Source of the DNA: Bacilli bacterium
GTDB lineage: Bacteria > Bacillota_I > Bacilli_A > ML615J-28 > CAG-313
Assembly (NCBI GenBank): GCA_017937305.1
Contig: JAGBDV010000007.1
Location: forward strand, 1-64,000
Direction: 5' to 3'
DNA: 64,000 nucleotides
Positions 27,210-32,631 of the stretch are shown in pieces. Positions within the stretch are counted from its first letter, which is position 1. Each line of letters begins with the position of its first letter. A model generated the notes under the pieces. The model was not told the origin of the DNA, did not search any database, and was given only the letters and a program-made list of their open reading frames with translations. The translations under genes and the position numbers were made by a program.

Positions 27210-27284
27210 TTTTTTATTGCATATTAAGTGCTAAATGGAAAAAAAAGTTATATAATATTAGTAGTAAAATATTTAAAAAACATT

Positions 27285-27576
27285 GAAAAGAAGAGTAAGT
27301 AATTAATAATTTTATAGAGAGTCTTTGTTGGTGGAAATAAGATATTGAGTTATTACTGAACATGGTCTTGGAGTTGGATTGTCGATATTTAGGCTTTCCC
27401 GGGTGCTCCCGTTATCGAGATAGAGTTTACAACTTAAAGAAGAATATGCCACTATTCTTGTAACTTTAGGGATTGAACTTGATGAGGGTTAAATTGTGAG
27501 GTTTAACTAAAAAAAGGTGGTAACACGAAAGATTATTTTCGTCCTTTTATCTATAGAATAAAAGGACGTTTTTTTA
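27285..27576 (+). ncRNA. T-box leader (methionine specifier) controlling metNIQ
   Basis: This 390-base gap holds a T-box riboswitch. A GAGAG element (27317-27321) and a long stem I are followed by the specifier region GAAC-ATG-G with ATG at 27362-27364, then TTGGAG. The T-box core GGTGGTAACACG (27516-27527) has TGGT, which pairs with the ACCA end of a tRNA with discriminator A, as in tRNA-Met. The terminator stem CGTCCTTTTAT (27540-27550) with ATAAAAGGACG (27558-27568) is followed by seven T residues. Uncharged tRNA-Met would favour antitermination and turn on the transporter. TATAAT at 27251-27256 is the likely -10. Confidence 0.92.
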
Positions 27577-27599
27577 TTGAAAGGATGGTGAGCATACTC

Positions 27600-28577
27600 T
27601 TGAATGAAAGATTATTAGAAATAAAGAATTTATCAAAGAGTTTTGGAGAACACCTAGTATTATCAAATATTAATCTAACTATTAATAAAAAAGATATATT
27701 TGGAATTTTAGGATTATCTGGCGCAGGTAAATCTACACTTATTAGATGTATCAATGGCCTTGAAATATTTGATGAGGGTGAGATTTATTTTAAAGATGAA
27801 AAAGTATCTTTTAATCGAGAATATCGAAAGAATGTTGCGATGATATTTCAACAATTTAATCTTTTGGATCAACGTACTGTTTTAAAAAATGTTGAACTTG
27901 CAGGAGAATTATTTAAAGACCCTGATCGTCGTAATAAAGCTATTAGATATTTAGAGTTAGTTGGTTTAAGTGATAAACTTTATAGTTATCCATCTCAACT
28001 TTCAGGTGGGCAAAAGCAAAGAGTTGCTATAGCAAGAGCTTTAATGAGCGAACCAGAAATATTACTTTGTGATGAAGCAACTTCAGCACTTGATCCTGAT
28101 ACAACTAATCAAGTTTTAGCACTATTGAAAGAACTAAATGAAAAGCTCGGGTTAACAATTATTATGATTTCACATCAAATGAATGTTATTGAAAAGATTT
28201 GTAATAAAGTTGCAATAATTGATAATGCTAAAATTGTTGAAAGTGGTGAAACACAAGAAATATTCTTGTATCCAAAAACTGAAATTAGTAAGAAAATTAT
28301 TTATTCAGGTCATATTAACACAAAGAGTGATGATTCAAAATTACTTAAAGTAATCTTTAATGGTGAACTTGATATGCCATTAATTGCAAATATTGTTCAA
28401 GATTGTAACATTGTCTTATCAATAATTTATGCAGATTCAAAAGTAGTGAATGATCGTGTATTTGGACAATTAATATTTAAAATGCCTGCAGATATTAATG
28501 ATGTTTTAAAACTTCGTAAATATCTAGAATTAAAGAATATTAATTATAAGGAGGTGGATGCGAGTGAGTTTTTCTGA
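27600..28577 (+). CDS. metN: Methionine ABC transporter ATP-binding protein
   Basis: 325 residues if translation starts at the TTG at 27600; AAGGAtGGTGA upstream pairs well with 16S rRNA at that spacing, whereas the in-frame ATG at 27585 lies on this site. Walker A GLSGAGKST (near 40), signature LSGGQKQR (near 138) and Walker B ILLCDEATSALD are all present. The last 75 residues form the NIL domain, which binds methionine and inhibits transport in MetN. T-box control, the permease and an NlpA-type binding protein downstream agree with methionine import. Confidence 0.92.
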   Translation: MNERLLEIKNLSKSFGEHLVLSNINLTINKKDIFGILGLSGAGKSTLIRCINGLEIFDEGEIYFKDEKVSFNREYRKNVAMIFQQFNLLDQRTVLKNVELAGELFKDPDRRNKAIRYLELVGLSDKLYSYPSQLSGGQKQRVAIARALMSEPEILLCDEATSALDPDTTNQVLALLKELNEKLGLTIIMISHQMNVIEKICNKVAIIDNAKIVESGETQEIFLYPKTEISKKIIYSGHINTKSDDSKLLKVIFNGELDMPLIANIVQDCNIVLSIIYADSKVVNDRVFGQLIFKMPADINDVLKLRKYLELKNINYKEVDASEFF

Positions 28578-29232
28578 GATTTTTAAAATGATTTTAGAAA
28601 CTCTAGGAATGACATTTATTTCATGTGGTTTAGCATACATTTTAGGTCTTCCGACGGGAATCTTACTTAATGTAACTTCTAAAAAAGGAATAATGCCATG
28701 TAAGTGGTTAAATACGATTTTAAGTTTAATAATTAATATCTTAAGATCCATTCCTTGTTTAATTATTGTTGTTTTATTAATGCAAACTGTACGTGATATA
28801 TTTGGTAGAGCTACTGGAGAATGGTATGCAATAATTATTCCACTTTTTGTAACTTCATTTGGTTTTGTATCTAGAATGGTAGAACAGTCCTTAGCTGAAG
28901 TTGATAATGGTAAAATTGAAGCTATCGAATCTTTAGGAGCTACTAAGTTCCAAATTATTACAAAAGTATTACTACCAGAATCAAGAGCCTCTTTAATATC
29001 AGGGCTTGCAGTTACCTTAGTTTCAATTCTAGGATATACTTCATTTGCATACAATATTGGTGCTGGTGGTTTAATCGCAGGTATTTGGAAATTCTATTCT
29101 AAGAATACTGGTGATTATTTAAGTGAACCATTCTTCTGGATAATGATTATTGTTGTTATTTTAATTGTTCAAGGTATCCAAGAATTAGGTTTATTAATTT
29201 CAAAGAAAATAGATAAAAGGAGAATATTATAA
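28564..29232 (+). CDS. metI: Methionine ABC transporter permease
   Basis: 222 residues from GTG 28564, which stands six bases after AAGGAGGTG; an ATG at 28558 is too close to that site. It has five membrane segments and the permease EAA loop near residues 120-140 (VDNGKIEAIESLGATKFQII). The start overlaps the end of metN, so the two are translationally coupled. Length and order match MetI. Confidence 0.91.
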   Translation: MSFSEIFKMILETLGMTFISCGLAYILGLPTGILLNVTSKKGIMPCKWLNTILSLIINILRSIPCLIIVVLLMQTVRDIFGRATGEWYAIIIPLFVTSFGFVSRMVEQSLAEVDNGKIEAIESLGATKFQIITKVLLPESRASLISGLAVTLVSILGYTSFAYNIGAGGLIAGIWKFYSKNTGDYLSEPFFWIMIIVVILIVQGIQELGLLISKKIDKRRIL

Positions 29233-30065
29233 TGAAAAAAAGATTTTTATGTTTAGTTGCTGTTTTAGTTTTATGTTTAAGTGTTTGTCTTACATCTTGT
29301 AATAAAGATAAAAAAACTATTTATGTTTGTGCTAGTGAACTTCCACATGCAGATATTTTAGAAAATGCTGTTGCACCAATTTTAGAAGAGCAAGGTTATA
29401 CTTTAAAAGTTACTGTTTTAGATTGGACTATTCAAAATGATTCAGTTGCAAGTGGAGATTATGATGCTAACTATTTCCAACATGTTCCATATTTAGAATT
29501 ATATACTGGTGAAGTTAAATTATTTGCTACAACAAAAGTACACTATGAACCTCTAGGAATTTATAAAGGTAAAGCTACTGGAGAACTTGCTGAAGGTAAA
29601 ACATTTGCTATTTGTAATGATGAATCAAATGCGTTAAGAGCTTTAGAATTATTAAAAGCTAAAGGTGTTATTGAAGATCTTCCTGTAGATGCTGAAGGTA
29701 AACTTACAATTACTGGTTCTAACTGGACTTCTTCAAATGGTGTTACTGTAACTTTAATTGCTGAAGAATTATTAGTTGCTTCTATGGCAGATTATGATTT
29801 TGTATGTCTTCCTTGTAATACAGCTTTAACAGGTAATGTTGATGGATCATTACAAGTTGCTAAAGAAGATGATGCTGAACTTGTTGCTGGTAAAGCAAAT
29901 GTTCTTGCTGCAAGAGTTGAAGATTATCAAAATGATGAAGTATACAAAGCTAAGATTGATGCTTTAACTGATGCATTACTTTCTAAAGCAGTAAGTGATT
30001 ATGTTAATGAAAAATGGGGTGGAGCAATCACTTGTGATTCTAGCTCACAAATTGATTTAAGATAA
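29232..30065 (+). CDS. metQ: Methionine-binding lipoprotein (NlpA family)
   Basis: 277 residues. A signal peptide ends in the lipobox LTSC (Cys 23), then the NlpA/MetQ fold: YVCASELPHADILENAVAPIL, an NYFQHVPYLE substrate region near residue 80, and a C-terminal DALLSKAVSDYVNEKWGG. The start overlaps the metI stop in TAATG. No strong terminator follows, only a small hairpin (30076-30094) without a T run. Confidence 0.93.
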   Translation: MKKRFLCLVAVLVLCLSVCLTSCNKDKKTIYVCASELPHADILENAVAPILEEQGYTLKVTVLDWTIQNDSVASGDYDANYFQHVPYLELYTGEVKLFATTKVHYEPLGIYKGKATGELAEGKTFAICNDESNALRALELLKAKGVIEDLPVDAEGKLTITGSNWTSSNGVTVTLIAEELLVASMADYDFVCLPCNTALTGNVDGSLQVAKEDDAELVAGKANVLAARVEDYQNDEVYKAKIDALTDALLSKAVSDYVNEKWGGAITCDSSSQIDLR

Positions 30066-30103
30066 TAAAATATAAAATGAAAATGTTTTCATTAGCATAT
30101 CTA

Positions 30104-30132
30104 TTTACATATAGTCAAATTAGGTATATAAT
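30104..30132 (+). promoter_or_regulatory. Promoter of the amino-acid importer operon
   Basis: TTTACA (30104-30109), a 17-base spacer, TATAAT (30127-30132). This predicts a leader of about 190 bases before the first start codon. Confidence 0.85.
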
Positions 30133-30138
30133 GACTAC

Positions 30139-30315
30139 ATAAAATAAAATATTTGGAAAAGATAGGATTTATTCCTTGATTATAATTATGCGATTAGCTT
30201 TTAATTTTCACATAATTATAAGCTAGTTGCTAAGATGAGGCTTATAGTTTTTTAAAGCCTGATTGATTGACTTATGCACCTAGAAGAGGAATACTTTTCT
30301 AGGTGTTTTTTACAG
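30139..30315 (+). ncRNA. Structured 5' leader ending in a terminator, class unrecognised
   Basis: The leader contains an 11-bp inverted repeat TTATAATTATG / CATAATTATAA (about 30178-30220). An overlapping TAGCTT / AAGCTA pair would form a pseudoknot or an alternative fold with it, and an AGGCTT/AAGCCT stem follows (about 30238-30262). It ends in an intrinsic terminator, CACCTAGAA with TTCTAGGTG and six T residues (30276-30311), directly before the ribosome site AGGAGG. A terminator between promoter and first gene means conditional read-through. It does not match the lysine, SAM, glycine or T-box consensus that I can recall. Confidence 0.65.
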
Positions 30316-30327
30316 GAGGAAAAATTT

Positions 30328-31176
30328 ATGAAAAAATTATTAGTTTGTTTTGTTTGTGCATTAGCACTATTATGTGTAGTATCATGTAATAACACTCAAG
30401 AAGATGTTGTTAAATTAATTGATATTAAATTAACAGATGAAGAATATGCTTTTGCTGTAAAAAAAGGTAATACTGAATTATTAGAAGATTTCAATGCTTT
30501 CTTAGCTGAAATTGAAGAAAATGGAAAATTTGCTGAAATCGTTGCTAAATATTTTGAAAATAAAGGAACAAAAAATGGTGTTGAAATCGCAATTGATAGT
30601 GTAGCTAATACTGATAAAAACTTTGTAGTTGCTACTAACTGTCCTTTTGAACCATTTGAATATATTGGTGATGATGGTAAAGCTTATGGCATTGATCTTG
30701 AAATTGCTGCATTATATGCTGAATCAAAAGGTTTAGAATTAGTAGTTAAAAATATCGCATTTGATGCAATTTTAAATGATGTTAATGCTGGTTATTCTGA
30801 TATGGGTATGGCTGGTATGACTGTTAACGAAGATCGTTTAGTATCAAATGATTTCACAACTGCTTATTATCAAGCTTCTCAAAAAATTATTGTAGCAGCT
30901 GATAATACAGATTTTGATAATTGTAAAACAGCAGAAGATGTTGAAAATGTAATTAAAGCTTTATCAGGTAAAAAGATTGGATACCAAACTGGTACAACTG
31001 GAAACTGGTATGTTGCTGGTGATGCTGACTGGGGATTTGATGGATTTGCTAATGTTGAAGCAAAAGGTTATAGTACTGCTCAACTTGCTATTCAAGATTT
31101 AGTAAATGGTCAAATTTATGCAGTAGTAGTAGATGAAGCACCTGGTGCTGCTATGGTAAAAGCATTCAATAAATAA
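30328..31176 (+). CDS. Polar amino-acid ABC substrate-binding lipoprotein, circularly permuted
   Basis: 282 residues from ATG 30328 (CAGGAGG upstream); a longer reading from 30274 starts inside the leader terminator. The signal peptide ends at the lipobox VVSC (Cys 20). Residues about 26-76 (LIDIKLTDEEYAFAVKKGN, then LLEDFNAFLAEIEENGKF and IVAKYF) correspond to the C-terminal end of normal SBP_bac_3 proteins. Residues about 96-282 correspond to the normal N-terminus onward (FVVATNCPFEPFEY, KAYGIDLEIA, AGMTVNEDR, KKIGYQTGTTG). They stop at AVVVDEAPGAAMVKAFNK, just where the missing C-terminal piece should begin. A linker of about 20 residues joins the original ends. The permease start overlaps the stop, so nothing has been cut off by a frameshift. 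Confidence 0.88.
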   Translation: MKKLLVCFVCALALLCVVSCNNTQEDVVKLIDIKLTDEEYAFAVKKGNTELLEDFNAFLAEIEENGKFAEIVAKYFENKGTKNGVEIAIDSVANTDKNFVVATNCPFEPFEYIGDDGKAYGIDLEIAALYAESKGLELVVKNIAFDAILNDVNAGYSDMGMAGMTVNEDRLVSNDFTTAYYQASQKIIVAADNTDFDNCKTAEDVENVIKALSGKKIGYQTGTTGNWYVAGDADWGFDGFANVEAKGYSTAQLAIQDLVNGQIYAVVVDEAPGAAMVKAFNK

Positions 31177-31880
31177 TGGCTAAAAAGTTTCAAGTTTTTC
31201 TTGACGCTTTACAAAAAGAATATTTCCAAAAGTTACTTTTAACAGGTTTAAAAAATACTGTTTTAATAGCTGTATTGGGTTTATTAATAGGTATAATTCT
31301 AGGTACGATAATAGCGATGGTAAAAGTTGCTCCTAAATATAAATGGTACATGAGATTCTTAAATGGTATCTGTAACGTTTATGTAGAGTTCTTTAGAGGA
31401 ACTCCAATGACAGTTCAACTATTACTAGCTTACTATGTTATCGTACCTTTAATTGGGCTTAAAGGTGTAGAAGCGTTGAATGTCGGTATAATTGTATTTG
31501 GATTAAATAGTGCTGCTTATGTATCTGAGATTATGAGAGGCGGAATTAACTCAGTAGATTCAGGTCAGTTAACAGCTGGTCGTGCACTTGGTTTAAGTTA
31601 TCCAATAACAATGATTAAAATAGTAATTCCGCAAGCAATTAAAAATATTTTACCTACCCTTGGTAATGAATTTATTACTTTAATTAAAGAAACATCTGTA
31701 GTAAGTTTTATTACTGTTGCAGATTTATATAATGCATTCTATAGTATTAGTTTAAGTACACATGATACGATTATTGCATATCTTGCGATGGCTTTAATTT
31801 ATCTTGGTCTTGTATTACTAATTACTTTATTAGTTAAAGTATTAGAAAGGAGTTTAGGCAAGAGTGATCGACGTAATTAA
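31176..31880 (+). CDS. Polar amino-acid ABC transporter permease
   Basis: 234 residues of the HisM/GlnP family: five membrane segments, the [13 protein letters not shown] motif near residue 70, and the EAA loop ([20 protein letters not shown]) near 125-145. It starts in TAATG, overlapping the binding-protein stop. Only one permease gene is present, so it should form a homodimer. Substrate class is amino acids; the exact one is not readable. Confidence 0.92.
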
Positions 31881-32631
31881 TTTAAAGAAAAGTTTTGGCA
31901 ATTTACATGTTTTACGTGGCGTTAATTTGTCAGTAAAAGATGGTGAAAAAGTTTGTGTAATTGGTCCTTCTGGTAGTGGTAAATCTACTTTACTTTATTG
32001 TTTAAACTGCTTAACAGATCCATCAGATGGAGAAATCATTTATGAAGGTAAAGATATTACTGATTTTAAGGTAAATATAAATGAAGTTAGAGAATCAATA
32101 GGAATGGTTTTCCAACAATTCAATTTATTTAAACATAAGACTGTGTTAGAAAATATTATTTTAGCTCCTGTTCATATTCAAACAAAATACTTAAGAAAAG
32201 GTATTAAAGATTACGGTAATTCAAAAAAAGAAATAATCGAAAATAATAAAAAATATGCTATGGAGTTATTAGAAAAAATAGGCCTTTCTGATAAAGCTAA
32301 TGCTTATCCATCAACACTTTCTGGTGGTCAACAACAAAGAATTGCAATTGTTAGAACATTGGCTATGAAACCAAAACTAATTTTATTTGATGAACCAACT
32401 AGTGCATTAGATCCTGAAATGGTAAAAGAAGTACTTGATTTAATTAGAGATATTGCAAAAGAAAATATTACAATGATTATTGTGACTCATGAAATGGGAT
32501 TTGCTAGGGAAGTTGCAGATAGAGTTATTTTTATGGACGAAGGTGTAGTTTTAGAAGAAGGAACTCCTGAAGAAATCTTTGATAATCCTAAGATGTCAAG
32601 AACTAAAGAATTTTTAAGTAAAGTATTATAA
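31864..32631 (+). CDS. Polar amino-acid ABC transporter ATP-binding protein
   Basis: 255 residues (GTG start, AAAGGAG eleven bases upstream) overlapping the permease by 17 bases. Walker [10 protein letters not shown], signature LSGGQQQR and Walker [15 protein letters not shown] are intact. It has the GlnQ/ArtP-family pattern, including [17 protein letters not shown]. An insert of about 15 residues after [12 protein letters not shown] (around residue 100) is slightly longer than in most GlnQ proteins. Confidence 0.93.

Follow-up and report, generated by a model that had tools for sequence, protein, structure and literature searches.

The open reading frame at positions 30328-31173 (+) raised the question whether a binding protein of the SBP_bac_3 family can naturally carry the pieces of its domain in rotated order, as a sequence-only reading of the window (the whole analysed stretch of 64,000 nucleotides from a Bacilli bacterium) had proposed. 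The frame starts with ATG at 30328, is closed by TAA at 31174-31176, has a Shine-Dalgarno sequence (AGGAGG) 5' of it at 30314-30319 and encodes 282 amino acids (P0001, locus L001). The signal peptide (30328-30387, +) ends with the lipobox cysteine Cys20, which is invariant in the 43 sequences of alignment A1, and stands ahead of the permuted order as had been claimed. Residues 28-76 (30409-30555, +) are the displaced segment from the C-terminus of the SBP_bac_3 domain, as assigned from matches to PDB chains and profiles and from a structure model; they contain what is presumably hinge strand 2, a further strand and two helices of lobe 1. A linker (residues 77-97, 30556-30618, +), delimited by PDB-chain and profile matches, connects the ancestral C-terminus with the ancestral N-terminus. 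Residues 98-282 (30619-31173, +) run from that N-terminus through lobe 2 and include Arg170 and Asp269. The mature protein was found to read LIDIKLTDEEYAFAVKKGN...FAEIVAKYF, then the linker, then FVVATNCPFEPFEY..., and to end with ...AVVVDEAPGAAMVKAFNK.

The gene is followed by its cognate ABC permease (31176-31880, +; BPD_transp_1, HEQRo_perm_3TM domain) and by the cognate ATPase (31864-32631, +), for which GlnQ was the best NCBIfam model, under its equivalog cut-off. P0001 is linked in this way to a PAAT permease and ATPase, as is typical of SBP_bac_3 members. The permease ATG at 31176 overlaps the stop codon at 31174-31176, and together with the intact frame and purifying selection this agrees with the earlier statement that the gene is not broken.

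A leader (30066-30327, +) that is kept in two congeneric genomes (L035 and L036) precedes the gene. Hairpins are predicted in it, and the last, a terminator-like hairpin at 30276-30306, lies directly 5' of the Shine-Dalgarno sequence. The three sequences showed no covarying pair, and the other loci compared gave no additional match. When 30040-30340 was searched against Rfam at E up to 1, no family reached its gathering score, and the sole match, SdsR (0.046), was treated as chance. The leader is possibly a novel attenuator. The one Rfam match at gathering score in the whole window was a T-box (RF00230) at 27274-27549 with 99.7 bits. This T-box precedes an ABC operon at 27585-30065 with an NlpA lipoprotein as its last gene, and from the sequence the operon, whose ATPase and permease were named by eye, looks like a methionine importer.

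The order of the domain was determined by comparison with proteins of known structure and with normal-order relatives. Using phmmer against PDB sequences, residues 14-176 of AncQR (4zv1) matched residues 101-278 of P0001 and AncQR residues 183-231 matched residues 28-76, so that the two stretches were non-colinear, and ArgBP (6svf) and GlnP SBD2 (4kqp) gave a similar pair of stretches. A profile built from 36 normal-order relatives matched P0001 with positions 191-243 first (39 bits, i-Evalue 4.6e-11) and positions 24-191 second (163 bits, 9.9e-49), an order which makes the protein a circular variant of the SBP_bac_3 domain and not an ordinary member. PF00497 scored 99.5 bits in two stretches (cut-off 26.4), the swap itself being read from the PDB chains and the normal-order profile. 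Every profile position is used once, with one border position used twice, and the domain is thus single, complete and unduplicated. These comparisons bore out most of the sequence-only reading: the mature protein opens with the C-terminal segment of the family, the normal N-terminus begins near residue 98, the chain ends at AVVVDEAPGAAMVKAFNK where that segment should have followed, and a profile match in normal order did not occur. Only the assertion that the segment is always C-terminal in the family was overstated, since gut Clostridia commonly have permuted members.

Measured on AncQR, the chain is cut between residues 176 and 183, which by GlnBP numbering is just before the second hinge strand. 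Both hinge strands would therefore remain with lobe 1, leaving one covalent crossing to lobe 2. Chance was excluded because the same order is conserved in other genomes. At the level of sequence it was confirmed that 30328-31173 encodes a circularly permuted SBP_bac_3 domain, consisting of the C-terminal segment, the linker and the stretch from the N-terminus through lobe 2.

An AlphaFold2 model based on the 43-sequence alignment (pLDDT 92.3, pTM 0.83) predicts the two-lobed PBP fold. Foldseek and VIA-align matched model residues from about 92 to 282 with amino-acid-binding proteins, the match stopping well short of their chain end. For 4psh_A, chain residues 4-177 of 225 were aligned (Z 17.6, 173 aligned, rmsd 2.0), and the highest VIA-align Z for the model was 18.1, with 6ggv_A. 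The C-terminal end of the model lacks the last approximately 45 residues of the solved proteins, and residues 92-282 match only about their first three quarters. The segment has strands at 28-31 and 38-45 and helices at 49-64 and 67-76, consistent with the missing end of the binding protein, and the ten-residue block averages for residues 31-80 were 95-98. Because the aligners keep chain order, residues 28-76 were left out of the superposition; from the model confidence, secondary structure and homology we infer that they pack into lobe 1. The VIA-align rows span residues 91-282 of this model, or 139-275 of the L003 model described below, and the absence of other folds from them means little.

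Next we considered whether the permuted gene is in use. In comparison to the congeneric L035 and L036, dN/dS was 0.12 and 0.09 for the segment, 0.047 and 0.048 for the core and 0.34 and 0.25 for the linker; with the more distant L037, which belongs to a different genus of the same family, they were 0.41, 0.25 and 0.82. In all three pairs computed the linker (residues 81-96) had the highest dN/dS of the three parts. Arg170 was conserved in 79 of 80 type A proteins (those sharing the cut of P0001) and Asp269 in all 80; of the 71 normal-order proteins, 63 have the Arg, and at the other position 51 have Asp and 15 more have Glu. We take these to be the positions of the Arg that binds the ligand alpha-carboxylate and the Asp that binds the alpha-amino group in SBP_bac_3. 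In the DNA examined a permease was downstream or fused for 72/80 type A, 11/13 type B, 4/4 type C and 62/71 normal-order proteins, and a recognised permease was missing for 8 type A proteins. The lipobox was detected by pattern in 77/80, 8/13 and 4/4 of the permuted types A, B and C, respectively, some misses being failures of the pattern or of the start codon. The operon position, the purifying selection and the kept ligand residues indicate, as far as sequence can tell, a working amino-acid importer. Four Riflebacteria-group proteins of group A1 (L059, L062, L063 and L064) were longer (298-322 aa), and in the DNA examined neither a permease nor an ATPase was recognised downstream of them; an orphan or chemoreceptor role is possible for them.

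In total 199 distinct matching ORFs were classified as 84 type A, 20 type B, 8 type C, 77 normal-order, 7 tandem and 3 partial, in a set enriched for permuted forms so that the counts give no frequency. Type A proteins are cut near profile position 190, type B at 105-134 with lobe 2 first, and type C at 140-164, inside lobe 2; L222 is a borderline type C case. Since searches with the junction are biased towards cuts within or close to lobe 2, no claim is made that cuts in lobe 1 are absent. Based on sequence comparison there are at least three cut sites, two of them in the genome of the window, which also encodes a type C SBP_bac_3 protein, L003 (G000:C23:9375-10217), with an adjoining permease and ATPase and with relatives of about 60% identity in G024 and G033. 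Its model (pLDDT 89.0, pTM 0.82) aligned to solved binding proteins mainly over residues 139-275, and the normal-order profile scored the first pieces of L003, L167 and L168 weakly (23, 18 and 17 bits). The best VIA-align match of the L003 model was Plasmodium PfVFT1 (5jkq; Z 13.2, 175 aligned, rmsd 4.9, residues 90-275), and nothing on permutation was found in the available part of the PfVFT1 literature (PMC13199436). Foldseek also matched the type C model to OpuAC over the whole length, but with an rmsd of about 9 and TM of about 0.43, and nothing was drawn from these matches. Some type A proteins are fused to the permease and keep the lipobox Cys (L041:3977-5605, L053:3983-5569, L056:3941-5527 and L057:3986-5566); they are fused via the end of lobe 2 and so possibly anchored at both ends. 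Type B proteins joined to a permease were also found (L172, L173 and L199), without a lipobox by pattern.

The search for the same order in relatives, as suggested by the earlier reading, gave 56 type A, 3 type B and 21 normal-order loci among the best 80 of 310 relative-encoding loci in a scan of genome contigs. Within the taxonomic order of the window the type A junction was present in 5 of 43 genomes (G000, G003, G004, G007 and G041). Within its class the full junction occurred in a single-SBP-sized frame in 8 of 247 genomes, with two further rows in G486 (a 603-aa frame) and G448 (a match from position 11). A permuted match was absent from the 57 genomes scanned from other orders of the class, where the only long row, in G080, was the tandem fusion L014. 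A sample of the class of the Clostridiales genome G101 had the full junction in at least 48 of 291 genomes at E 2.1e-38 or better, a count which includes the prior carriers G101 and G108 and beside which weaker full-junction rows exist; all 30 loci examined from these 48 genomes were permuted. In the phylum of the Riflebacteria genome G106, A1-like matches were found in 4 of 39 genomes (G105, G106, G107 and G423). Seven plasmid records matched the junction query, one of them covering at least 80%, with annotation as binding protein/permease in Enterococcus. In a phage collection 27 records matched and three covered at least 80% of P0001; these contigs, named 'Bacteriophage sp.', carry no annotation, come from human faeces and are probably bacterial DNA.

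The history of the forms was analysed in a tree of 90 proteins, each arranged in the canonical order. On this tree the four states take 12 changes, and the starred branches require the normal-order label to change at least 9 times, numbers which cannot separate gains from reversions, with long branches at L174, L144, L129, L171 and L111_6458. The log-likelihood falls by 430.6 units when all permuted proteins are forced into one clade (p-AU 0.0012) and by 249.3 units when type A alone is so constrained (p-AU 6.6e-5); on these sequence data a single origin of the permuted forms, or of type A, was rejected by the AU tests. Type C (100/99), L168 (set 99/89), L178 (set 100/100) and L172/L173 (set 97/93) are placed within or next to separate normal-order groups, a pattern that suggests several origins. 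The members of group A1, from Clostridia, the genus of the window and, with four sequences, the Riflebacteria group, form one clade (100/99). The Riflebacteria-group sequences stay together, the window's genus lies among the Clostridia without a resolved place, and the position of A1 beside normal-order relatives had a support of 91/92 and was not starred. The simplest reading is that A1 probably crossed phyla by horizontal transfer. The closest pair of a permuted and a normal-order protein was L087 (type B) with L108 at 72% identity, and P0001, compared along its full rotated row, came nearest among normal-order proteins to L102, at 46%.

Taken over sequence and model, we put the probability at roughly 0.9 that the gene encodes a working lipid-anchored binding protein, with a single, naturally permuted SBP_bac_3 domain, for a polar amino-acid ABC importer made up of three genes. 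It is unlikely that the protein is instead a chimera, in which a segment from a different binding-protein gene replaced a lost C-terminus, so that the fold is restored from parts of different ancestry. Brautigam et al. raised this for MglB-2, in the part of their paper available (PMC4990184). The segment is short (about 50 aa), hence its own ancestry is weakly resolved, and L102, the closest protein over the whole row, lies outside the group holding L010 and L011; however, these two are the best normal-order matches of the core (L010, 148 bits) and of the segment (L011, 56 bits) and share one small tree group. Tandem binding proteins are known from GlnPQ (6h30) and L014, and yet we regard it as highly improbable that the segment is an extra N-terminal domain before a complete protein or part of a tandem two-domain protein: the profile positions are covered once in P0001 save for one border position, the core breaks off at the point from which the segment ought to continue, and approximately 45 residues at the end of solved binding proteins have no counterpart at the C-terminal end of the model. 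The remainder is incomplete at its end without residues 26-76, as the sequence-only reading had expected of a permuted protein. Two complete domains of the GlnPQ type were likewise considered and rejected, only one copy of the profile positions being present. The draft genome is fragmented (25 contigs, 71.8% complete), and an assembly artefact or a decaying gene might be suspected; however, the same order occurs in other genomes at 91% identity and the frame is open, overlaps in the operon and is under strong purifying selection. Because 56 of the 80 genome-scan loci share the cut and 3 have another, an artefact can hardly be credited.

By sequence, and in agreement with the model, the short linker connects the ancestral C-terminus with the ancestral N-terminus, each of which belongs to lobe 1, and the new termini are at the boundary of lobe 2 and the hinge. 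Joined within lobe 1, these termini would make lobe 1 one continuous chain with lobe 2 next, and one covalent strand would run between the lobes rather than two. The protein would still close on its amino acid and hand it to the permease. The rotation may have arisen by an in-frame tandem duplication followed by trimming, that is, by loss of the outer halves as suggested before. No intermediate of the window's lineage was found among the relatives gathered. Tandem fusions do exist (L014 and six large ORFs in the Riflebacteria phylum sample), and by analogy the GlnPQ-type tandem SBDs are a plausible intermediate. The six ORFs (L224, L228 and L230-L233) exceed 800 aa and have two complete tandem SBP_bac_3 domains. 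Rotations of this kind have very probably recurred in gut bacteria, at several cut sites.

Whether the permutation matters to the protein is evenly balanced. It could be neutral, a duplication accident that was tolerated because the termini adjoin in lobe 1 and that left function unchanged; in operon context and ligand residues it is like its relatives of normal order, and permuted and normal-order proteins are up to 72% identical. Against this, recurrence at similar cut sites hints at selection, although junction-based searches favour such cuts. Only tentatively, and at somewhat less than even odds, do we suggest that permutation is a recurrent, selected route in gut-bacterial SBP_bac_3 proteins, with independent cuts after, before and inside lobe 2 and a continuous lobe 1. 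The first two cuts would leave single-hinge importers that open differently or are tethered differently to the membrane, and in some of which the new C-terminus runs on into the permease.

P0001 is homologous over the whole domain to the polar amino-acid-binding proteins of SBP_bac_3 (GlnH, ArtJ, ArgBP and the GlnPQ SBDs) and has like operon partners, but differs from them in its rotated order, its termini at the lobe 2/hinge boundary and one presumed inter-lobe crossing instead of two. GlnPQ-type tandem SBDs (6h30) have the same junction from C-segment to N-segment, in two complete domains as compared to one in P0001. Among the best 60 of 93 PDB sequences matching the junction profile (1e-6), only the tandem 6h30 has a best stretch that crosses the junction. 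Tp0684/TpMglB-2 ('Type Ic / Cluster Bc'), like P0001 a bacterial ligand-binding protein with a lipid anchor, has been described as naturally circularly permuted in the available part of PMC4990184. That protein also has relatives in gut Gram-positives, but belongs to the Type I glucose-binding family, with three N-lobe strands moved to the end and a fourth crossing added, and its authors named tethering as a possible reason for permutation (PMC4990184). A Pfam scan of P0001 to E 10 gave four families with SBP_bac_3 best and no Peripla_BP, HMMER filters dropping most matches above about 0.1, and so no MglB-type homology was seen. With CPSARST, natural permutation was reported among the glycine-betaine-binding proteins 2B4L (OpuAC), 1R9L and 1SW1 (ProX by references), molybdate-binding proteins and CysB, according to the available text (PMC2395249). 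Their overall fold is similar to that of P0001, but they were found by structure and are <24% identical (PMC2395249), whereas in SBP_bac_3 the homology is plain from sequence, and other permuted members have normal-order relatives of up to 72% identity. Among the open-access papers listed in the literature searches, no description of permuted SBP_bac_3 proteins was found, and in the available part of PMC7683729 circular permutation is mentioned only in a reference. The earlier remark that there is no common description of permutation in this family held within that literature, the MglB-2 and glycine-betaine cases being other families. What appears new from these sequences is permutation in SBP_bac_3, natural permutation itself being already known in other binding-protein families.

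Profile and fold searches that are bound to chain order capture just part of such permuted proteins. SBP_bac_3 binding proteins are textbook Venus-flytrap models and biosensor scaffolds. Repeatedly permuted proteins with normal-order relatives of up to 72% identity provide natural experiments on the need for two hinge strands, and the same experiments would inform on the origin and spread of circular permutation and on sensor-ready cut sites.
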